Below, in pieces: positions 5,891 through 25,250 of a DNA stretch of 25,250 nucleotides; position 1 is the first letter of the stretch, and every line of letters starts with the position of its first letter. The notes beneath the pieces are model-generated. The model made no database searches and was not told the origin of the DNA. It saw nothing but the letters and a program-made list of their open reading frames with translations. The position numbers and the translations under genes were made by a program. The stretch lies in assembly GCA_965371225.1 (NCBI GenBank), contig CBDUXP010000056.1:1-25250 (forward strand), written 5' to 3'. Source of the stretch: CBDUXP01 sp965371225 [NCBI: uncultured bacterium]. Lineage in GTDB: Bacteria > Abyssobacteria > SURF-5 > CBDUXP01.

Positions 5891-6760
5891 ATGTCCGTCG
5901 TTCTCAACACCATCGTCCCCGTCTTCAGCATCATCGGCTGCGGCTATCTCTTGGGCGGCCGCCGCGGCCTGCACCTCCCCACGATCGCGGACCTCGCGAT
6001 TTTCGTCTCCTCGCCCGCGCTTATCTTCTCCGTGTTGGCGCGCACCACCGTGCAGCCGGCGCAGTGGGCGCTCTTGGCCGGCGGCACCGCCTGGATCGCG
6101 GCGGGCACGGGGCTGTGCGCGTATGCCTATGTGCGGCGCGCGCCCGGAACGCTGCGCGGCCTCGCCCTGCCGGCCGTGTTCTGGAACGCGGGCAACATGG
6201 CGCTCCCGTGCGCGCATTTGGCGTTTGGCGACGCGGGGCTCGAGGCGGCGGTGATCGTGTTCGTGACCATGGTGGTCTTCCAATCCACGTTCGGCATCTG
6301 GATCGCCAAAGGCGAGGGGGGCTTATTCGAGATCTTTCGCATGCCCCTCATTTACGCCTGCGGGGCGGGGTTGGTGGTCGCCGCCACCGGTGTGACCGTG
6401 CCCCCCATGGTGCTGCGTCCCATCACGATGGTGGGCGACATCGCGATTCCCCTCATGCTCATCAACCTGGGCCTCCAGTTACGCACGTTGCAGATCACCG
6501 AAATGCATCACTCGCTGGTCGGTGTCGGGATTCGCATCGGCGGAGGGCTGCTGTTCGCGGTCCTGTACGTCGCGGTGTTCCAGCCAGGGGGCGTCTCGCG
6601 GAACGTCTTGCTCCTTGAGGCGATCATGCCGGCCGCGGTCATCAACATCGTGATGGCGCAGCGGTACAACACCAATCCGGCCCTGGTCGCCTCCACCATC
6701 GTGCTGGGCACGCTCCTGAGTGCGCTGACCATTCCGCTCCTGCTCCTCTATCTGACCTAG
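5891..6760 (+). CDS. AEC (auxin efflux carrier) family transporter
   Basis: 289 residues, slightly short for the family (usually 300-320). The ATG at 5891 opens MSVVLNTIVPVFSIIGCGYLLG, the standard first helix of AEC permeases; the frame is open to 5549 but that part runs antisense through the LolA-like gene. About nine or ten hydrophobic segments are visible. Helix-break motifs are present in both halves: PAVFWNAGNMALPCAHLAFG (the NxGxxxLP signature, about residues 95-115) and EAIMPAAVINIVMAQRYN (about 245-262). Family members export organic anions such as malate or malonate, or auxin-like molecules, across the inner membrane; the substrate here is unknown. A 12-bp palindrome follows the stop. 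Confidence 0.85.
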   Translation: MSVVLNTIVPVFSIIGCGYLLGGRRGLHLPTIADLAIFVSSPALIFSVLARTTVQPAQWALLAGGTAWIAAGTGLCAYAYVRRAPGTLRGLALPAVFWNAGNMALPCAHLAFGDAGLEAAVIVFVTMVVFQSTFGIWIAKGEGGLFEIFRMPLIYACGAGLVVAATGVTVPPMVLRPITMVGDIAIPLMLINLGLQLRTLQITEMHHSLVGVGIRIGGGLLFAVLYVAVFQPGGVSRNVLLLEAIMPAAVINIVMAQRYNTNPALVASTIVLGTLLSALTIPLLLLYLT

Positions 6761-6772
6761 CCTGGGCCCAGG
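6761..6772. repeat. 12-bp perfect palindrome after the AEC gene
   Basis: CCTGGGCCCAGG follows the TAG stop immediately. It could fold as a short hairpin near the 3' end of the message, but has no loop-plus-U-tract structure. The remaining gap to 7034 (about 260 bp) shows no gene and no convincing promoter; TACACT at 6892-6897 is the only -10-like hexamer and lacks a -35. Confidence 0.3.
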
Positions 6773-7034
6773 GCCTGCGGAGCCACCCGGGCGAGGGGGG
6801 TGTGCTTCCGCTCGGGCGCGCCACCGGAGGGTGGGCGCGTCACTGGTCGGGGTGCGACCGTACACGGACGGGTGCGGGGCAGGCGATGTGGTACACTGAT
6901 TCAGTTTGTGATAAGTCGCTGTGCCAATGTGTGGGGCGCTGTGGGTGAACTGCACGGATTGGCGACCGGCTGGTCTGTACCGGCTGCGTAACGAGGGGAC
7001 TAGGCGAGACCCCTCGGGATCCCGGGGAGAGGAT

Positions 7035-7739
7035 TTGCTGAGGGAACTCTTTTCCGACCTGCGGGGCACCAGCCTTGAAACACTGCTGGTCGCCCACGAG
7101 TCGCTGCTCGAAATCGTCCCCGCGGGCCTGACCGTGGTCTCTCCCGAGGGGCACGCCCGGTTCGTCAACAGCTATCAGAGCACGATTCCCGGGTGTCCGT
7201 GGGTTCAGGACGGGAAGGTGGACCTGCGGTTCCATGAGGCGGTGCCGGCGCCCTTGCGCACGGGGCTGCGCCGGCTGTGGTCCACCCCCGCAAAGGATGC
7301 CCCGGTCCAGCTTCCGCCGTTCAGCTTCGCGGGGCAGGCGAACGTGCTGGAGACGTGGCTCGTCCCGATCGTGGGGACTGCCGGCATTGTGGCCGCGGTG
7401 ATCGTGCAGCACGACCGCGCGGCGGTGCGGGTGGACTACGGTTCCCGGCGCCGCGTCCCGCCGCCCGACCACACGGCGGAGGCGGAGCACCTGGGGGTCT
7501 ACGCGGCTCCCGCGCTGGACGTGTCGCGTCTGCGCGCGACCTTCGCCCTGACCGACCGGGAATTGCAGATCGTCGATGCCCTGTGCCGGGGGCACGGCAC
7601 CGCCCAGATCGCGCAGGACATGGGGATCAGCACGCACACGGTGAAGGACCACGTGAAACGTATCCAGCGCAAGATGAACGCCCCCAACCGCCTCACCATC
7701 GTGTCCCGCGCACTCCAGGTGTCCCTCTTCGAGACGTAG
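7035..7739 (+). CDS. LuxR-type (HTH) transcriptional regulator with N-terminal sensor-like domain
   Basis: 234 residues from a TTG at 7035, chosen because GGGGAGAGG lies just upstream; an in-frame GTG at 6921 would add 38 residues of poor composition (many Arg, Trp, Gly). The C-terminal 57 residues are a clear LuxR/FixJ HTH: FALTDRELQIVDALCRGHGT, then AQDMGISTHTVKDHVKRIQR-KM and a final Leu/Val-rich helix. The N-terminal 130 residues (HESLLEIVPAGLTVVSPEGH, RFVNSYQSTIPG, then a beta-rich WLVPIVGTAGIVAAVIVQHD) resemble a PAS-like fold. No receiver Asp pocket or sigma-54-interacting AAA+ domain is present, so it cannot itself open a sigma-54 promoter. Its 3' end abuts the palindrome cluster upstream of flgF, so an accessory role in flagellar control is possible, but only position suggests it. 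Confidence 0.85.
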   Translation: MLRELFSDLRGTSLETLLVAHESLLEIVPAGLTVVSPEGHARFVNSYQSTIPGCPWVQDGKVDLRFHEAVPAPLRTGLRRLWSTPAKDAPVQLPPFSFAGQANVLETWLVPIVGTAGIVAAVIVQHDRAAVRVDYGSRRRVPPPDHTAEAEHLGVYAAPALDVSRLRATFALTDRELQIVDALCRGHGTAQIAQDMGISTHTVKDHVKRIQRKMNAPNRLTIVSRALQVSLFET

Positions 7740-7744
7740 CCTCC

Positions 7745-7799
7745 CGGCAGTTTTTGCCGCCACCGGCAGATCTGCCCCGCCGCCCGGCAGGCCTTGCCG
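7745..7799. promoter_or_regulatory. Cluster of three GGCA-N4/5-TGCC palindromes, candidate enhancer of the flgF promoter
   Basis: Box 1 is CGGCA-GTTTT-TGCCG (7745-7759), box 2 is CGGCA-GATC-TGCCC (7764-7777), box 3 is CGGCA-GGCCT-TGCCG (7785-7799). Centres are about 19 and 21 bp apart, nearly two helical turns each, so all face the same side of the DNA. They lie about 122-163 bp upstream of the predicted sigma-54-type start site, where NtrC-type enhancer sites usually sit. A 5-bp spacer between inverted half-sites also fits that family's Fis-like HTH. Inner stems of only 4-5 bp make terminators unlikely. Confidence 0.6.
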
Positions 7800-7887
7800 T
7801 CTCACCCCAAGCCTCCGCTTCAGTCGTAAAGCACTGTAAATAGTGTAGTTCTGCGTATGCTGGCCGATCTGCTGGTGGCCCGGTAGG

Positions 7888-7904
7888 TAGGCACGCGGCT
7901 TGCC
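7888..7904 (+). promoter_or_regulatory. Sigma-54-type promoter of the flgF operon
   Basis: TAGGCACG-CGGC-TTGCC. GG at 7890-7891 and GC at 7902-7903 are separated by exactly 10 nt; 7 of 8 positions match TTGGCACG and TTGC is perfect. The predicted start near 7915 leaves a 28-nt leader carrying the GAGGAG ribosome site before the GTG at 7943. The palindrome cluster at 7745-7799 is correctly placed to be its enhancer. Confidence 0.7.
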
Positions 7905-7942
7905 ACCTTGAACGCCGCGGGCGTGGCCCGCTGAGGAGTGCT

Positions 7943-8698
7943 GTGGATAGAGGTTTGTACGCCGCCGCCAGCAGCATGCTCGTCCAGCAGGGGGCGATGG
8001 ATGCCGCGGCCGCCAATACCGCGAACGTCAACACCGCAGGGTACCGGCGCACCATTCCGCTGGCGCGCGGTTTCCACATGCTGTTCGCTAACGAGATTGC
8101 GCGGTCGCCCGGTCACCGCGGCGGGATCGTGGACGGCGGGGGCGCCACCTTGGAGGCGACCTACACCGATACGACCCAAGGCCTCTTGCGCCCCACCGGC
8201 CGGGCCCTGGATGTGGCGTTGGACGGGCCCGGGTTCATGGCCGTGCAGACCCCCGCCGGGGTGCGGTACACGCGGGCGGGAAACTTCCAACTCAACGGCC
8301 GAAATGAACTCGTGACGGCGCAGGGGCACCCGGTCCTGGGCCAGGGGGGGGCGATTCGCATCACGGGCACCACCGTGCACTTCGATACGGGCGGGGTCGT
8401 GACGGTGGATGGCGCGGCAGTCGATCGGTTGCAGATCGTGGACTTTCCCGATGCCCAAGGGCTCGTCCGGCTGGGGGAGAACCTGTACCGCGCGCCGCCC
8501 AGCGTTGAGCAGGCGCGCCTGGACGCCACGGAAACCCAGGTGCGCGGCGGCCACCTGGAAGTGGCCAACCTGAACATCGTGGACGAGATGGTGCGGTTGA
8601 TCGATATCCAACGCGCGTTCGAGATGGCCGCCCGCACCGTGCGGGTGGTGGATCGCACCCTCGGCGTGGCGGTGCAGGACATCCCGGGACCGGGTTAA
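7943..8698 (+). CDS. flgF: Flagellar proximal rod protein FlgF
   Basis: 251 residues, normal for FlgF. It is one of the axial proteins that stack on the MS ring to build the proximal rod, exported by the flagellar type III system. The start is GTG at 7943, four nt after GAGGAG. The N-terminus MDRGLYAAASSMLVQQGAMD and NTANVNTAGYRR match the rod/hook N-terminal helix with its N-x-A-N-x-x-T-x-G-Y signature. DGPGFMAVQTPAGVRYTRAGNFQLN is the central motif shared with FlgG, and EVANLNIVDEMVRLIDIQRAFEMAARTVRVVD is the conserved C-terminal helix. It precedes flgG as in most bacteria; assignment to FlgF rather than a second FlgG rests on order and divergence. First gene of the sigma-54-type operon. 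Confidence 0.9.
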   Translation: MDRGLYAAASSMLVQQGAMDAAAANTANVNTAGYRRTIPLARGFHMLFANEIARSPGHRGGIVDGGGATLEATYTDTTQGLLRPTGRALDVALDGPGFMAVQTPAGVRYTRAGNFQLNGRNELVTAQGHPVLGQGGAIRITGTTVHFDTGGVVTVDGAAVDRLQIVDFPDAQGLVRLGENLYRAPPSVEQARLDATETQVRGGHLEVANLNIVDEMVRLIDIQRAFEMAARTVRVVDRTLGVAVQDIPGPG

Positions 8699-8720
8699 CC
8701 CTGATGAAGGAGCGTTCGGA

Positions 8721-9506
8721 ATGAGCCTATCGCTATTCGTCGCCGCCACGGGCATGTCCGCCCAGCAGCGGAACGTGGACGCGATTTCTAACAACTTGGC
8801 CAACGTCAACACCACCGCGTTCAAGCGCGGTCGCGCCGAGTTCCAGGACCTGCTCTACCAGACCGTGCGCGCGCCCGGCACCCAGTCCGCCGCCGGGATC
8901 ACGATCCCCAGCGGGCTGCAGTTCGGCGTGGGCGTCGGGCTCGTGGGGATCTCCAGCTTCTTCGGGCAGGGCTCCCTGACCCAGACGGGCAATCCCATGG
9001 ACCTGGCCATCGAGGGCGATGGCTTTTTCCAGATTCTGGTGCCCAGCGGAGAAATCGCCTACACCCGCGATGGCTCGTTTCAACTGAATCAGGACGGCCA
9101 ATTCGTCACGAGCGACGGTTTTGCCTTGGAGCCGGAGATCACGATTCCTGACGACGCGATTGCGATCACGGTGGGGATCGACGGCATCGTGACGATCTCC
9201 CTCAACGATCTGACCACGGCGGAGGTGGGGCAGATCGAGCTGGCGCGCTTCATCAATCCGTCGGGCCTCTTCGCCCTGGGCCGCAACAGTTTCAGCGAGA
9301 CCGAAGCGTCGGGCCCGCCGCTGCTGAGCAACCCCTCCGAAGCTGGTGCCGGCAACCTGCGGCAGGCGTTCATCGAGGGATCGAACGTGGAAGTCGTGCA
9401 GGAAATCGTCAACCTCATCATCGCGCAGCGCGCCTTCGAGCTGAACGCGAACGTGCTGCGCAGTTCGGACGAGATGATGCAAACCACGGGTCAGCTCCTT
9501 CAGTAG
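8721..9506 (+). CDS. flgG: Flagellar distal rod protein FlgG
   Basis: 261 residues, matching the usual 260. Builds the distal rod that passes through the P and L rings. AAGGAG ends 8 nt before the ATG. N-terminal MSLSLFVAATGMSAQQRNVD and SNNLANVNTTAFKRGRAEF, central GNPMDLAIEGDGFFQILVPSGEIAYTRDGSF and C-terminal GSNVEVVQEIVNLIIAQRAFELNANVLRSSDEMMQ are textbook FlgG segments. The GVGVGLVGISSFFGQGSLTQTGN stretch, specific to FlgG, separates it from FlgF. It lies 22 bp after flgF and 15-18 bp before flgA, so it should be co-transcribed. Confidence 0.96.
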   Translation: MSLSLFVAATGMSAQQRNVDAISNNLANVNTTAFKRGRAEFQDLLYQTVRAPGTQSAAGITIPSGLQFGVGVGLVGISSFFGQGSLTQTGNPMDLAIEGDGFFQILVPSGEIAYTRDGSFQLNQDGQFVTSDGFALEPEITIPDDAIAITVGIDGIVTISLNDLTTAEVGQIELARFINPSGLFALGRNSFSETEASGPPLLSNPSEAGAGNLRQAFIEGSNVEVVQEIVNLIIAQRAFELNANVLRSSDEMMQTTGQLLQ

Positions 9507-15039: not shown

Positions 15040-16992
15040 ATGGGAATACGGATTACCAATCAGCTCCTGATCAACACGACGCTGTTCAACCTGCAGGGAT
15101 CGTTGCGGCGCATCGCGCGCCTGCAAGACGTGCTCGCCAACGGCGGCAAGGAACTGCTGCGGCCGTCCGACAATCCGGAAGCGGTGGCGACGGCCCTGCG
15201 CCTGCGCGGGACCCGCACGGAGCTCGAGCGCTTCACCACGAACATCGAGCGGGTGCGGCCGTTCGTCGAACTGACGGAATCGGCGTTGGGCGATCTCGGG
15301 ACCGCATTTATCACTCTGCGCGAGGCCGCACTCACCGGCGCGGACGAGAGCATCGATGCGCAGGGGCGCCTTGCCCTGTTCCAGCAGGTATCCAGCCTGC
15401 TGGAGGACATCATCAATACCGCGAACGCCGACTTCGCCGGGCGCTTCCTGTTCGGCGGGACCGAGACGCGGACCGAGCCGTTCATCGATGGGGGCAGCGT
15501 GGTGCAGTTCGCCGGGAATCTCGACGCGATCTTCGAAGAGATCGTCGACGGGAACGTGGTGCAGATCAACACCATCGGGGGCACGGTCTTTTCCGGCGCC
15601 GCCGGCGTGCTCACCGGCTCGGGTGACTTGGCCGCCGGGATTGGGGACGGTGTGGTTGGTGGATTCGATACGCCCCTGGCGCACCTGAACACCGGCGCCG
15701 GCGTGACGGCAGGCGCGATCACGATTACCGATCGTCTCGGGGCCGCCGCGGTGGTGGCCATCGGCACCCCAGGGGTGACCGACACCATCGGCGGTGTGAT
15801 CGCCGCGATCAACGGCACGGGCCTCGCGGTGAACGCGCAGATCAATCTGGCGGGCCACGGCTTGTTCATCGAGGATACGGCCGGCGTGCCCGTGACCAAC
15901 CTCATCGTCGCCAGCGGGACGACCACGGCCGCCGAGTTGGGCATCGAGACCGACCCCTTGGGCGTCGCCGGTGGTGTGGTGGGCACCGACCTGGATCCCG
16001 TGGCGACGCTGTCGAATGCGACCCTGGCAACCACGCTCGCGGACGTGAACAACGGCGCCGGCATCGCGTTCTCGACTTTCCAAATCCAGGACAAGGACGG
16101 CACCATCGTCACGGTTGATCTGACCGGCTTTACGGGCGCCAACACGGTGGGCGACGTCATCGCAGCGATCACCGGCGCGGGGACGAATATCGTGGCCTCC
16201 CTGGATGCCGACGGGTCCGGTATCCTGCTGACCGATACTACGAGTACGGGCCGCAACGAGATTCGGGTAACGGAAGGGCCGAGCACGACCGCCGGTGACC
16301 TCGGCCTGGTGAACGCGGTGAGCGGCACCGTGCTCGAGGGCGCACGCCTCAATCCCGCCGCCGACCTGACGGCGCCCGGTACCCTGTCAACCTCGCTGGC
16401 GTTGCTGGATAACTCCAACGGGTTGAATTTGCAAGGGTTGCGCGTGACCAACGGCGAGAAGACGGCGACCGTGGACCTGTTCGGCGCCGTCACGCTGGGC
16501 GACGTGGCCGCGGCCATCGAGGGGGCGGGCGTGGACCTGCGCGTGGACGTGGACGTGCAGGGCAAGCGCTTGATTCTCACCTCCACCCTGGGGAACACGC
16601 CCATTACCGTCACCGATCTCGGGCAGCCCGGTGACGCGCGGGCCCTCGGTCTCAACGCGCCGAGCATTTTCGACACCGTCATCCAGGTGAAAAATGCGCT
16701 GGTGAACGACGATCCGCAGACGCTCACGCGGTTGGTGGCGGACATCGACATTCAGCTCGCGAAAATCAACGACGCACGGGCCGTCACCGGCGGGCGGATT
16801 CTGCAGTTCAACTCCGTCCAGCGGCGGTTGGAGGATCAGCTGGCGGACATTCAGATCCTCATCACGCAGACCGAGGACGCGGACATCTCCGAAGTGATCA
16901 CGAACCTCTTCGCGGCGGAGAACACCTTCCAAGCGGCGCTGAGCGTCGCCGGCCGCGTGCTGCCGCGTTCGTTGCTTGAATTCCTGCAGTAG
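15040..16992 (+). CDS. flgL: Hook-filament junction protein 3, FlgL, with a triple-repeat insert
   Basis: 650 residues, about twice the usual 300-400. The flagellin-like N-terminus is clear (MGIRITNQLLINTTLFNLQG, then RPSDNPEAVATALRLRGTRTELERF) with DFAGRFLFGGTETRTEPF near residue 131-148. The C-terminal D0 helix ends AENTFQAALSVAGRVLPRSLLEFLQ. Between lie three tandem units of about 100-110 residues, roughly 205-303, 320-424 and 441-539. Each runs T-x-GxVxAAI, a segment like VASLDADGSGILLTD, then a Thr-rich stretch ending LGI, LGL or LGL. These match the hook IN motif pattern and should form extra surface domains on the junction. Start 14 bp after flgK. The C-terminus plus gene order exclude flagellin. 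Confidence 0.92.
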   Translation: MGIRITNQLLINTTLFNLQGSLRRIARLQDVLANGGKELLRPSDNPEAVATALRLRGTRTELERFTTNIERVRPFVELTESALGDLGTAFITLREAALTGADESIDAQGRLALFQQVSSLLEDIINTANADFAGRFLFGGTETRTEPFIDGGSVVQFAGNLDAIFEEIVDGNVVQINTIGGTVFSGAAGVLTGSGDLAAGIGDGVVGGFDTPLAHLNTGAGVTAGAITITDRLGAAAVVAIGTPGVTDTIGGVIAAINGTGLAVNAQINLAGHGLFIEDTAGVPVTNLIVASGTTTAAELGIETDPLGVAGGVVGTDLDPVATLSNATLATTLADVNNGAGIAFSTFQIQDKDGTIVTVDLTGFTGANTVGDVIAAITGAGTNIVASLDADGSGILLTDTTSTGRNEIRVTEGPSTTAGDLGLVNAVSGTVLEGARLNPAADLTAPGTLSTSLALLDNSNGLNLQGLRVTNGEKTATVDLFGAVTLGDVAAAIEGAGVDLRVDVDVQGKRLILTSTLGNTPITVTDLGQPGDARALGLNAPSIFDTVIQVKNALVNDDPQTLTRLVADIDIQLAKINDARAVTGGRILQFNSVQRRLEDQLADIQILITQTEDADISEVITNLFAAENTFQAALSVAGRVLPRSLLEFLQ

Positions 16993-17011: not shown

Positions 17012-17482
17012 GTGATGCCCGTCGAAATCGAGACCCCCCGGTTCGGCCCCCTCGCCCTCGCCGAGGACGAGGTGTGGGCGTTCACGCGCGGCGTCATCGG
17101 GTTGCCCGAGTGTTGTCGCTTCGCCCGGTTGCCCTTCGACGACGCCGCGATGCCGTTCGAGTGGCTTCAGTGCCTCGACGACGTGGGCGTCGCGTTCCTG
17201 TTGGCCGATCCCCAGCGCTTCTTTCCGGATTATCGGGTGGTGGTGCCGCCGGAAGAGTTGGCCGCCATCCAACTCACGGCAGGGGCCAGCCCCGAGATTC
17301 GCTGCATCGTGACGGTGGGCGGAGCCGTGGCGGACATGACGGCGAACCTGCTGGGGCCCGTCGTCCTGAACCGGTCGGAGCGCCTCGGCATGCAGGTCGT
17401 GCACGCCGACCCGCAGTACGCCACGCAACACCGGCTCTTTCCGGAGGCCGCGGCCCATGCTGGTTCTGAGTCGCCGGCCTGA
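17012..17482 (+). CDS. fliW: Flagellar assembly factor FliW
   Basis: 156 residues from GTG at 17012 (ATG at 17015 is equally likely; AGGATG at 17001-17006 serves both). FliW binds CsrA and blocks its repression of flagellin translation; free flagellin displaces CsrA from FliW, making a feedback loop. Family features: [59 protein letters not shown] with FFPDYRV, then a beta-rich end ([23 protein letters not shown] and LGMQVV). It follows flgL by 19 bp and overlaps csrA by 26 bp, so the two should be made together. Confidence 0.94.
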
Positions 17483-17690
17483 CGAAGCCATCATCATCGG
17501 CGCCGACGTGGAGGTGAAGGTCCTCGGCATCGAGGGTGACCACGTCAAGCTTGGCATCACCGCTCCGCGCGCCGTGCCGGTGCACCGCGCGGAAGTGTTC
17601 CTGGCGATTCAAGAAGCGAATCGCACCGCGGCCGAAGGCGCAGTGCCCGATGCTGCCGCCCTGCGCAGCCTGTTAGGCGACAGCAGCTAA
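17457..17690 (+). CDS. csrA: Carbon storage regulator CsrA, translational repressor
   Basis: 77 residues. RNA-binding dimer that recognises GGA motifs in hairpin loops near ribosome sites, typically of flagellin mRNA in FliW-bearing bacteria. [35 protein letters not shown] and [16 protein letters not shown] are canonical; Leu4 and Arg44 needed for RNA binding are present. A tail of about 20 residues ([21 protein letters not shown]) extends past the core; in other FliW-containing species the C-terminal extension helps bind FliW. GGAGG at 17443-17447 inside fliW serves as ribosome site. The stop overlaps by 3 bp the stop of the convergent gene on the minus strand. Confidence 0.96.
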
Positions 17691-18430
17691 GGACTCGCGC
17701 TCGGGCCGGTGTCCGGCGCCTGCAGCGCCTCGGTCACCGGCGGATCGTCGGGTTCGGGTTCCGTCTCTTCCACAGCCTCGGCCGCACCACCCCCGGTCCC
17801 CTCAGGCGGCCAGGGCGGCAATTCCCGTATTCGCCGGAAGGCGAACTCTTCGTCGTCCGGCCCGTACAGGTCGGGATTCTCCACGTGCGCAGCCAAGAAC
17901 GCGCGCAGCGCTTCCGGGCTGTCGACCGCCGGCACGTCTGGTCCCTCGAACAGCGATTCATCCACGAACCGGATGCGTAACACGTCGTCGGCGATCGTGT
18001 AGCGGCCCAGAAAAATCTGACCGTCGACGAAGCCCTCATCCGGGTCGAACTCCGGCACCCCGTCCTTTTCACCGGCGAACCATCGCAGTTGCAGGTATGC
18101 CCTGCCGGCAATCGTGCCGGTGGTGGCGCGCATGTGGTGGATCTCCCGGCCGTCCAGGGATCGCATTGCCGTGTAATAGCTGTGCCCGTCGAACGGGAGG
18201 AAGACGACATACGCGAAGTCCTCGCCAGCCAGCTCCTCGGCCTCTTCACTCGGCTCCGCGTCGTGGTCGAACCAAACCCAGTACCCCGTGAGGGCGGGGT
18301 CCACGCGCCCTTCCGCCCACGGCCAGGCGGGAACGGATGATTCGTAGAAGTCGTAGCACGCCAGGGTGGCGACCACGAGGAACGCAGCGCCCACCCAGTC
18401 ACGCAGACGTGGCAGGGCCCCGGGCCTCAT
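17687..18430 (-). CDS. Unrecognised exported or membrane-anchored protein
   Basis: 247 residues from the ATG at 18428-18430, which overlaps the stop of the upstream fusion gene as ATGA; the frame is open to 18976 but that part is antisense-like Arg/His-rich noise. A single hydrophobic segment near the N-terminus ([18 protein letters not shown]) suggests a signal anchor; the Cys lacks a standard lipobox. The mature part is acidic with many aromatic residues ([66 protein letters not shown]) and looks like a beta-barrel or lipocalin-type fold, ending in a Pro/Glu-rich tail. I do not recognise a family. The 4-bp overlap indicates translational coupling to the lipid-synthesis fusion. Confidence 0.7.
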
Positions 18431-20871
18431 CGTTCCGCCAGCAGCTCGTGGAAGCGTTCGGCCGTGGCCTCTTCGCCGTTGTAGATGATGTCGTGGAGGC
18501 AGTTCGCGATGGGCAGGTCCACGCGATGCTTCCGCCCCAGTTCCCAGAGCGCCTGCGTGGCGTGGTAGGTCTCGGCGGCTTCCTGTTTTTCGGCGAACCG
18601 CTTGAGCACCCGTTCCGCGGACCAGCCCTGCCCGAGCAGCGTGCCGAACCGGCTGGAGCGGCCGCCGAGCGCGGTGGCATGGAAGTCCGGCCACCACGCG
18701 TGCCCCTCGGTGAACGTGCGCGCGGACGCGCCCATCGCCCGGGCGAGCCGGATGATCTCTTCGGTGGCGAGCATGCACAACTCGCCGAGATAGTTCTGGC
18801 CGAGCTGCAGCGTGGCCGCGCAGGCGTACATGGTGGCGTAGGGATTCTTCGCGGCGCCGGCGAGCGCGGTGCCGATGGGGTCGTTGTTCGTGAAGACCCG
18901 GAAGTGCGGCCCGCGGAAGTAGCCCGCGACGCGGGGCAGGAAGATAGGCTCGAACCCCGCCAGCACCGTGGCGCACGGGTGGCCCGCCAGCACCTCACTG
19001 GCGATGTTCGCGCCGCTGAGCGTGAAGAGGTGGATGGGCGCGGGCGGATGGAACCGGGAGAGCACCTCGCGCGCCACCTCGGGCATGACTTGCAGGGTGT
19101 CGCGGTCGAAGCCCTTGGTGCCGATGACCAGGTCCAACTCCCGCGACGCGTACCGGCCCACGTGCTCGATCACCTCGCGGAACCGGCCGGAGGTGGTGGC
19201 GACGACGATGCACTTGGCGCCGTCGATGGCGTCCTTGTACGAAAACTTCGGGTGCACGATCTTCGGAATTTCCACCCCTTCGCTGAAGTGCGGATGGATG
19301 CGGCTTTCCTGAATCGCCTTCGTGATCTCCTCGCGCGTGTCGTAGATCACAATGCTGTGCCGCTCGAACGCGCTGTCGCGCAGGAATTTTTCCCCGATGA
19401 TGTGGCAGAGCGTGTAGCCCCAGCGGCCGGCGCCGATGACGGCAACCTTGTCCGAGAAGTCCGCACTGAAGAGCCGGTGGTCCGCCATGTTGCCGTAGTA
19501 CGCGACCATGTCCCGGTCGCGGACGGTCACCTTCGGCGTGAACCAGCGCCGCCGCCGCACAATGTTGGTGTGCTCGAGCATGGCGAGCCCGGCCTCCACC
19601 ACGTCCGCGGCGCCTCCCTGAAATTCGCGCGAGAAGTTCGCCGGCGTCCCGAACGTCTTCTGGTGGTACTCCTCGACCTGGTCGATTTCGCGGCGCACCC
19701 GATCGGTGAGCGTGGGGAGGTCCACCTCGCGGAAATCCTCCACGGCCTCGGCTACTACCTGCGTCGGCAAAACCTTCTTGACCTGGGCCACGCGCCGCAT
19801 GGCCTCTTCCCCGACCCGCTGGGCGCCGTTCCCCACGCCATCCACGTCTTCGCTGGTCAGGAGATCCTTCACGCTAAAGGGCTCGCCGATCACGACGCAC
19901 GCCTTGCCGTACGTGTTGCGATAGCGGCCGAACACTTGCGCGAAGCGGCGTTCCAGGAAGGTGGCATCTGCCGGCACGCGGCAGGCCGGGCCCGGGTGGC
20001 GCGGTGGGTGGCGCAGGAAGTTGAAGGTGCCCGAGCCGGTGATCATCTTCCGGGTTTCCGGCACGCGGCTGTACGCCACCGCCATAGGCACGATCACGGC
20101 GTCCGCCTCGGCGTTCACGATGCCCTCGATCACGCGGAGCCGGTCCGGCAGGCGCAAGGTGCCGTTGCGGGTGCGCGCGCCCGCCCGGTTGTTCGCCTCC
20201 ACGAACACGATAAAATCTTCCTCCCGCTGCGTGAGCGCGCGGCACGTGTACGTGAGCACGCGTTTGTATAGCTCCCCCTCTTCCTCCGTGTCGAACCGGC
20301 GCAGAATCTTGATGCAGTTCATCTCCTTCATCAGCCGCTCGATGAAGGGGACCACCATCAGGTTGGCGCCGGCGGCGAAGTGCGCCAGCCCGAACCCGTT
20401 GCAGTCTTTGACGATGCCGACCATGGGGTCGTCGATGTTCGACGTGTGGTTCGGCGCCCAGACCAGGGACCGGCTCTCCGAGCGGAGGGGGAGCAGCGGC
20501 GCAATGTCTTGCTCCGTTTCCACAAAAAGCTGGTGCATCCCCGTGTGGTCGAACAGATGCTCCAGCAGGAAGAACAACGTAATGCGCATGGGCGCGTGCG
20601 TCGCCGGGTTGTACGTGGGCAGCGTGTCCCGCGTAAACCGCTCCACCAATTCCCGCTCGGCGGGATCCCCGTTGCAGATCGCGTCGCACACTTCCGCCGC
20701 GATGGCGTCCGGCGAGGGAATCGGCATGGGCGTGTACGGCTGCATGCGCTCCGGCGCGCCTTCGGCTTCGCCGATCCGGCGGACCACGTCGAAGAAGGCC
20801 ATGGTGGCCCGTTCGATCTGGCGCCAACGCCAAGTGGGGGCGGCTGGAGGGGCCGCGGTGGACAGGGGCAT
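18427..20871 (-). CDS. Bifunctional fusion: PlsB-like glycerol-3-phosphate acyltransferase + GpsA-like glycerol-3-phosphate dehydrogenase
   Basis: 814 residues. The N-terminal half (about 130-335) is a PlsB/PlsC-type acyltransferase: NHTSNIDD gives the HX4D catalytic pair (His142, Asp147), CIKILRRFDTEEEGELYKR resembles PlsB motif II, VFVEANNRAGARTRNG is a degenerate motif III and VIVPMAVAY is motif IV. The C-terminal half (about 473-800) is GpsA: KVAVIGAGRWG Rossmann loop (Gly480-x-Gly482-x-x-Gly485), IGTKGF with the likely catalytic-region Lys586, LSGANIASEV (GpsA LSGPSxAxE), AKNPYATMYAC with Lys675, and SSRFGTLLGQG, where the usual RN pair reads RF. Together they could turn DHAP into glycerol-3-phosphate and acylate it to lysophosphatidic acid. 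Start ATG at 20869-20871 lacks a clear ribosome site. Confidence 0.88.
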   Translation of the reverse strand: MPLSTAAPPAAPTWRWRQIERATMAFFDVVRRIGEAEGAPERMQPYTPMPIPSPDAIAAEVCDAICNGDPAERELVERFTRDTLPTYNPATHAPMRITLFFLLEHLFDHTGMHQLFVETEQDIAPLLPLRSESRSLVWAPNHTSNIDDPMVGIVKDCNGFGLAHFAAGANLMVVPFIERLMKEMNCIKILRRFDTEEEGELYKRVLTYTCRALTQREEDFIVFVEANNRAGARTRNGTLRLPDRLRVIEGIVNAEADAVIVPMAVAYSRVPETRKMITGSGTFNFLRHPPRHPGPACRVPADATFLERRFAQVFGRYRNTYGKACVVIGEPFSVKDLLTSEDVDGVGNGAQRVGEEAMRRVAQVKKVLPTQVVAEAVEDFREVDLPTLTDRVRREIDQVEEYHQKTFGTPANFSREFQGGAADVVEAGLAMLEHTNIVRRRRWFTPKVTVRDRDMVAYYGNMADHRLFSADFSDKVAVIGAGRWGYTLCHIIGEKFLRDSAFERHSIVIYDTREEITKAIQESRIHPHFSEGVEIPKIVHPKFSYKDAIDGAKCIVVATTSGRFREVIEHVGRYASRELDLVIGTKGFDRDTLQVMPEVAREVLSRFHPPAPIHLFTLSGANIASEVLAGHPCATVLAGFEPIFLPRVAGYFRGPHFRVFTNNDPIGTALAGAAKNPYATMYACAATLQLGQNYLGELCMLATEEIIRLARAMGASARTFTEGHAWWPDFHATALGGRSSRFGTLLGQGWSAERVLKRFAEKQEAAETYHATQALWELGRKHRVDLPIANCLHDIIYNGEEATAERFHELLAER

Positions 20872-20931
20872 ACGGGGCGTGTTCTCGACCGTCAAGCGAT
20901 GGGGGCACCGCTTCGACTGAGGAGTCACGCC

Positions 20932-20937
20932 AGTATA
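20932..20937 (-). promoter_or_regulatory. Possible -10 box of the acyltransferase-dehydrogenase gene
   Basis: TATACT on the minus strand, about 61 bp before the ATG, in the context CGCTATACTGG, similar to the CGCTATAGTGG upstream of the hydrolase gene at 2893. No acceptable -35 at 16-18 bp. The rest of 20940-21132 holds no gene; CTCGCA/TGCGAG arms at 21022-21057 form a weak inverted repeat. Confidence 0.3.
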
Positions 20938-21132
20938 GCGCGGCGGGGGTTTCCCAGAGCGTTTCGCTTCAGAACATGTATCATACCAGTAACTTACGCT
21001 GGTGGTATCCTGCGGGTGAGACTCGCAGCTTGACAGCCGGAGCCTCAGGGATGCGAGCTGCCTTACGGGCGGGCAGCCCCGGCGCATGCTACTGGTAACA
21101 GGCCGCGCCGGTGCGGCGCCCTCAGGAGGTCC

Positions 21133-24827: not shown

Positions 24828-24840
24828 GGCAATATTTGCC
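24828..24840. promoter_or_regulatory. Exact GGCA-N5-TGCC palindrome, candidate enhancer
   Basis: GGCA-ATATT-TGCC, same half-sites and spacing as boxes 1 and 3 upstream of flgF. Its centre is about 110 bp upstream of the predicted sigma-54-type start site at 24944. A looser match with a 7-bp spacer (GGCA-TCCAGCA-TGCC) follows at about 24862-24876. Confidence 0.5.
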
Positions 24841-24916
24841 CGTTCACGTCCCTCTCCCCATGGCATCCAGCATGCCTAACTCGTGTTATACCAGTAGTTT
24901 ATGAAAACATGTGACC

Positions 24917-24933
24917 TTGGCAATGGGCTTGCT
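24917..24933 (+). promoter_or_regulatory. Sigma-54-type promoter of the gene at 25000
   Basis: TTGGCAAT-GGGC-TTGCT. GG at 24919-24920 and GC at 24931-24932 are exactly 10 nt apart. TTGGCA and TTGCTT match the consensus fully; the CG after TTGGCA reads AT. The predicted start near 24944 gives a 56-nt leader with AAAGGAG before the GTG at 25000. Confidence 0.65.
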
Positions 24934-24999: not shown

Positions 25000-25250
25000 G
25001 TGGCTGCTGAATCGACCGGTACGTCGGGTCCCACCGACCAGCCAAACATGGACAAGCTGATGCACGATATTCACGAATTCCTGCGCGCGGAGGTGGCCGA
25101 GGATGAGTCCATCATCCGCAGCGTGCCCACGGACGGGGAGCCCGTGTTGGAAGGGGAACTGCTGGACGCGGCCGACGCCGGTTTCCTGCCGGGGGGGGAA
25201 CCCGAGATCCTGGGGCGGGTCGGGCGTCTGGCGCGCTGGGCGAGCTACGG
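25000..25250 (+). CDS. N-terminal part of an unrecognised protein (3' end outside the window)
   Basis: AAAGGAG (24987-24993) is followed 6 nt later by GTG at 25000, opening a frame that stays open to the window's end (83 codons). The visible part starts with a polar stretch (AAESTGTSGPTDQPN), then a helix (MDKLMHDIHEFLRAEVAEDESIIRSV), then an acidic segment with GELLDAADAGFLPGGEPEI and GRVGRLARWASYG. An internal Met at residue 17 is an alternative start. No family is recognisable from this portion and no signal peptide is seen. Control by a sigma-54-type promoter with the same upstream palindrome as flgF suggests a flagellar, chemotaxis or surface-modification role; that is inference. Confidence 0.7.
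   Translation, partial: MAAESTGTSGPTDQPNMDKLMHDIHEFLRAEVAEDESIIRSVPTDGEPVLEGELLDAADAGFLPGGEPEILGRVGRLARWASY

Follow-up and report, generated by a model that had tools for sequence, protein, structure and literature searches.

Flagellar genes form a long run in the stretch of DNA analysed here (25,250 nucleotides from an uncultured bacterium, referred to as the window), and the DNA between a LuxR-type gene (6921-7739) and the first gene of this run, flgF (7943-8698), carries an array of short palindromes followed by a promoter-like element. The question raised by this locus is what kind of switch it represents and which class of regulator would operate it. An earlier, sequence-only reading had regarded the palindromes as three sites of an NtrC-type activator, a flagellar master regulator encoded elsewhere, placed before a sigma-54 promoter of flgF. 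The computational analysis reported here, in which we considered the window itself, other flagellar loci and whole genomes, leads us to conclude, with a probability of about 0.8, that the DNA at 7746-7903 combines an enhancer and a promoter in a unit of the FlbD/ftr kind, which drives a sigma-54-dependent flgF operon and whose regulator is encoded elsewhere.

The sigma-54-type promoter element and the flgF gene run

Sigma-54 promoters are characterized by the consensus GG-N10-GC within TGGCACG-N4-TTGC. Of all sigma-54-like elements in the window, AGGCACGCGGCTTGC (7889-7903, forward strand, with GG at 7890-7891 and GC at 7902-7903) has the highest score; it differs from this consensus by one mismatch, and reaches 19.5 on a scale of our own weights put on the consensus, with a maximum of 20.5. 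It ends 39 bases before flgF, and the GG-N10-GC element that had been proposed to precede this gene is indeed present in the sequence; transcription would be predicted to start near 7915. The flgF gene itself, on the forward strand, was identified by family matches, and its GTG start at 7943 is preceded by GAGGAG at 7933-7938. Behind the promoter the genes run flgF-flgG-flgA-flgH-flgI-flgJ-type-flgN-flgK-flgL-fliW-csrA and would presumably make up one operon. The flgJ-type gene is of the rod-binding type, and the last gene (17457-17690) is what we take, from its sequence and signature, to be csrA. The flgL gene (15040-16992) encodes a 650-aa FlgL, whose long middle section falls outside the best matched stretch.

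Palindromes upstream of flgF

Three palindromes precede the promoter (these, the spacer and the palindromes of the second module described below are given without strand). The first candidate FlbD-type (ftr-like) site, GGCAGTTTTTGCC (with flanks CCCGGCAGTTTTTGCCG), occupies 7746-7758, its centre at 7752 lying 138 bp from the -24 GG, and the second one, GGCAGGCCTTGCC (with flanks CCCGGCAGGCCTTGCCG), occupies 7786-7798, with its centre at 7792, 98 bp from the GG. Both read CCCGGCA-N5-TGCCG and their separation is exactly 40 bp. Between them lies GGCAGATCTGCC (7765-7776, centre 7770.5), a palindrome with a 4-bp gap and likewise a candidate site, which lies in phase with the two outer ones, at centre-to-centre distances of 18.5 and 21.5 bp; the spacings of about 19 and 21 bp estimated previously are close to these values. 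A scan of the window also bore out the claim that exact GGCA-N5-TGCC occurs only three times (7746-7758, 7786-7798 and 24828-24840), and found GGCA-N4-TGCC at 7765-7776 and in one further copy at 18107. An imperfect 18-bp inverted repeat (7759-7776 / 7862-7879, 89% complementary) ties the middle palindrome to the promoter-adjacent DNA. The spacer between the enhancer and the promoter contains an AT-rich stretch, chosen after inspection (7815-7860, 54% A+T vs 32% in the window), which is possibly a bend or IHF region; over the whole enhancer-promoter spacer the A+T content is 44%, and 52% in the second module.

The palindromes start 6 bp past the stop codon of the luxR gene, a position that would also suit RNA hairpins, acting as a terminator of the luxR transcript from upstream or forming its RNA end. 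Folding of the region gives a stability modestly above that of shuffled versions (z -2.0, with 8 of 200 shuffles folding as well), but the predicted fold pairs bases across the palindromes and does not form three clean hairpins. No terminator-like site with a T-run was found in 6500-9000, and the intrinsic terminator reading, which calls for a GC-rich hairpin followed by a T-run, was set aside.

A second module and the role of chance

The third N5 copy, GGCAATATTTGCC (24828-24840), is a candidate FlbD-type site with exact GGCA-N5-TGCC, and, as had been noticed before, it precedes another sigma-54-type element, TGGCAATGGGCTTGC (24918-24932, forward strand, score 18.5 of 20.5), by 85 bp from its centre to the -24 position. 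Within this module are also a palindrome with a 7-bp gap, GGCATCCAGCATGCC (24862-24876), and, between the site and the promoter, an AT-rich stretch (63% A+T, chosen after inspection). The gene fragment behind it (approximately 25000-25250, forward strand), which gave no family match above the cut-off, leaves the window. Judged by its layout, 24828-24932 is a smaller module of the same kind as that of flgF, with one N5 site, and its promoter would be co-regulated with the flgF promoter.

The bare number of N5 sites is weak evidence, because the observed three (vs 0.98 expected) are reached in 9 of 100 dinucleotide shuffles. The combination of N5 sites with sigma-54-like elements is, on the other hand, far from chance. 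Each of the three sites is followed, at a distance of 30-200 bp, by a sigma-54-like element with a score of 18.5 or more, and two of the sites share one element. Among 1000 third-order Markov sequences none reached three such sites and none had two sites before one element; a single sequence had two elements with one site each, and 15 had at least one site-element pair. Elements of this score occur on average 1.97 times per Markov sequence, vs 4 in the window.

Comparison with other flagellar loci

No close relative of the window was found in the genome contigs and phylum searches, the best full-length FlgI identity among the matches listed being 53%. A FlgF search of the genome contigs yielded no relatives, as did a FlgI search of viral contigs; one FlgI match (51%) was obtained at the strict cut-off in the phylum of genome G025 (99 genomes), and the phylum of G008 entered the FlgI search with 2 genomes. 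In a tree of FlgG and FlgI from 58 loci the window stands alone on a long branch. The window also encodes, at 18427-21087 on the reverse strand, an acyltransferase fused to glycerol-3-phosphate dehydrogenase (GpsA); used as a second marker, it gave a match over both parts, with 27-29% identity, in 2 of the 30 genomes searched.

Palindromes of the form GGCA-Nx-TGCC were counted in the best 80 loci from a FlgI alignment search of genome contigs (40-52% identity, 1.28 Mb), in the regions that reach up to 250 bp upstream from sigma-54-like elements and together make up 2.25% of the sequence. With a gap of 5, 20 of 63 palindromes, in 12 loci, fell into these regions vs 1.42 expected (14x), an enrichment whose Poisson value overstates independence, as the loci are related to each other. 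The corresponding counts were 1 of 56 vs 1.26 expected for a gap of 4, 1 of 53 vs 1.19 for a gap of 6, and 6 of 46 vs 1.03 for a gap of 7, an excess weaker than that of gap 5. For two control half-site words the count in the same loci did not exceed 3 at any gap length, without clear enrichment. A hairpin would not require a gap of exactly 5, which is favoured here upstream of sigma-54-like elements; this, and the fold described above, make RNA hairpins a very improbable explanation of the array.

When the score required of the element was relaxed, 24 of the 29 listed sites have their centres 51-125 bp before the -24 position. The corresponding distances are 98 and 138 bp in the flgF module, where site 1 (138 bp) falls outside this common range, and 85 bp in the second module. 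Several of the 29 sites precede flgF/flgG-like or flgI genes. Secondary N5 sites (at most one mismatch) found near 42 distinct exact sites show the phasing of the window (18-22 bp) in 14 cases of 29, a count in which pairs are scored from both members and which takes in loci picked for carrying the motif. At one locus (L072) three N5 sites precede one sigma-54-like element and also a divergent, weaker one.

The same loci bear on the LuxR-type regulator encoded next to the array, for which the palindromes might serve as operators, through which it would act on flgF or on its own gene. LuxR-type flagellar regulators exist, e.g. VisN/VisR, the stop codon of the gene lies 6 bp before site 1, and its product has a LuxR-type HTH, with weak matches to those of VisR and VisN, far below the cut-offs. 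However, the N5 motif precedes sigma-54-like elements in loci without a tblastn match to this protein (E 1e-5), the palindromes are located downstream of the luxR gene, not upstream, and LuxR proteins are not known to activate the sigma-54 polymerase. The operator reading was set aside on account of the motif occurring without a LuxR relative, a statement that covers the fetched loci, and we consider it improbable, if slightly less so than that of RNA hairpins. As for the protein itself, its N-terminal part gave no Pfam match and it has no relative in the fetched loci.

Whole genomes of one phylum

A stricter pattern, in which the palindrome is followed by a sigma-54 element 72-102 bp later, was searched for in 148 genomes of one phylum, that of G024 (the genome sets of three phylum searches overlapped for the most part and are counted as one phylum). 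It gave 16 matches in 11 genomes for N5, 7 in 5 for N4 and 3 in 3 for N6, vs 0, 0 and 1, respectively, for the reversed patterns; the N5 pattern is absent from 137 of the 148 genomes. The flgI gene is present in all 11 genomes with N5 matches, in 3 of 5 with N4 and in 2 of 3 with N6, vs 80 of 148 overall. Frames behind the N5 matches were scanned in 15 of the 16 cases (L141 has no frame within 400 bp), and a flagellar part was found among the candidate frames in 6 of 16: FliD (at L138, the second of two candidate frames), FlgE twice, FliS, a FlgF-like rod protein and a flagellin-type protein. The remaining N5 matches comprise two glycosyltransferases, an AMIN/TPR protein, a transporter 274 bp away and five without a telling match. 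The N4 matches, by comparison, have a flagellar part in 0 of 7 cases and one chemotaxis receptor (for L156 and L159 one frame of several was scanned), and 1 of the 3 N6 matches has MotA behind it. The N5 counts, compared with those of N4 and N6, show that the signal resides in the gap of 5 bp, which leaves the N4 palindrome of the window as no more than a candidate site, whose notable property is its phase.

The FlbD class of activators

In PMC3333781 the motif of Caulobacter FlbD is given as CCCGGCA-N5-TGCCGGG. The outer palindromes of the window match this form in both the half-sites and the 5-bp gap, and the candidate sites were on these grounds assigned to the FlbD/ftr class. The same text presents DVU1063, a homologue of FlbD, as the apparent flagella regulator of Desulfovibrio vulgaris, with the motif GGCAxxxxTGCC, with whose four bases the gap of the middle palindrome agrees, but N4 sites are not enriched elsewhere (the 1 vs 1.26 reported above). 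FlbD is described, in PMC3930126, as a sigma-54 activator on ftr sites that represses early and stimulates middle and late flagellar genes.

No activator of the NtrC class was recognised among the genes identified in the window, and the cognate activator gene was not seen there, which leaves room for a different sigma-54 flagellar activator, of the FlrC, FleR or FlgR class, as the protein that uses the sites; FlbD is likened to FlgR, FlrC and FleR in PMC7064773. The sites, however, fit the FlbD and DVU1063 motifs (PMC3333781), and the motif yGTCA-N6-TGACr, predicted for the FlrA/FleQ-like DVU2894 in PMC4641369, differs from them. We find such an activator unlikely, although less so than either of the alternatives discussed above.

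FlbD and the motif occur together in several other genomes, though the agreement is imperfect. The genome of locus L072 (G029) encodes a protein, P0003, which matches the NCBIfam FlbD equivalog with 762 bits (cut-off 750). Including G029, 9 of 37 chosen genomes contain a FlbD match whose identity is 61% or higher (one of these matches is partial and another is interrupted by a stop codon), and an N5 site is present at the locus in 7 of these 9, L032 and L055 having FlbD but no exact site. In the other 28 genomes, where score alone cannot separate FlbD-like proteins from other activators, 7 loci have an N5 site, and in the genome of one of them (L049) no activator matched at the cut-off. G024 has the motif, and its best FlbD-like activator is encoded directly before flgB-flgC-fliE (flgB recognised by eye only); in G006, which has it too, the corresponding gene precedes flgB-flgC (recognised from their rod domains and size). 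G020 has the motif as well, and scanning of one neighbour of its FlbD-like gene revealed a TPR gene instead of a rod gene. TPR-repeat proteins adjoin FlbD-like activator genes at L116 (66-1289), L120 (2959-4215) and L137 (1-1485), and possibly such proteins, including the AMIN/TPR protein behind an N5 site, are a recurrent partner.

The earlier proposal holds as regards NtrC-type activator sites before a sigma-54 flgF promoter, with the class now narrowed to FlbD. Two parts of it are unproven: the label of 'master', because in Caulobacter it is CtrA that is called master, with FlbD placed below it, on early and middle genes (PMC3930126), and the equality of the three sites, because N4 sites near sigma-54-like elements do not exceed expectation in the best 80 loci.

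A model of the switch and its relation to known systems

We propose that an activator of the FlbD class (with receiver, AAA+ and Fis-type HTH domains), encoded elsewhere in the genome, would bind the two N5 sites as dimers and possibly also the in-phase N4 palindrome between them. It would assemble on the DNA, the AT-rich spacer may permit looping, and its ATPase would open the sigma-54 polymerase at 7889-7903, upon which transcription would run from flgF to csrA, through the genes for the rod, the rings and the hook-filament junction.

If so, the control of a flagellar operon in the lineage of the window is readable from DNA alone, and the results suggest that the FlbD motif (gap of 5 bp, spacing of two turns) is usable for annotating sigma-54 flagellar regulons beyond Caulobacter and Desulfovibrio. 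A broader conjecture, which we put forward tentatively and would not yet bet on, is that the FlbD code (a gap of exactly 5 bp and tandem sites separated by two helical turns, which precede a sigma-54 flagellar promoter by about 50-140 bp) is old and common to Alphaproteobacteria, the phylum of G024 and the lineage of the window, with rod genes next to those of FlbD-like activators in two or more genomes that do not belong to the clear FlbD group, and with N4 as a heterotypic third site that tunes cooperativity.

Among known systems, the NtrC enhancer of the glnA type places a pair of palindromes upstream of its sigma-54 promoter, at a distance of about 100-150 bp; the window resembles it in this arrangement, and differs in the half-site sequence and the targets. 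With the DVU1063 regulon of Desulfovibrio vulgaris the window shares GGCA...TGCC half-sites, sigma-54 promoters and flagellar targets. The gap, however, is written as 4 bases in PMC3333781, whereas 5 are favoured in the sample of the G024 phylum, and some DVU1063 sites are located downstream of the promoter, while those of the window are upstream. The ftr elements of Caulobacter crescentus, as described in PMC3333781, PMC3930126 and PMC7064773, are like those of the window in the CCCGGCA-N5-TGCCG sites, the sigma-54 promoter and the flagellar rod and hook genes as targets. Unlike them, the window has an array of three palindromes with one N4 member, its gene run also carries flgN, flgK, flgL, fliW and csrA, and FlbD and FliX were not seen among its own genes. 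The switch of the window is clearly a further example of the known FlbD/ftr regulatory kind, rather than a new kind.
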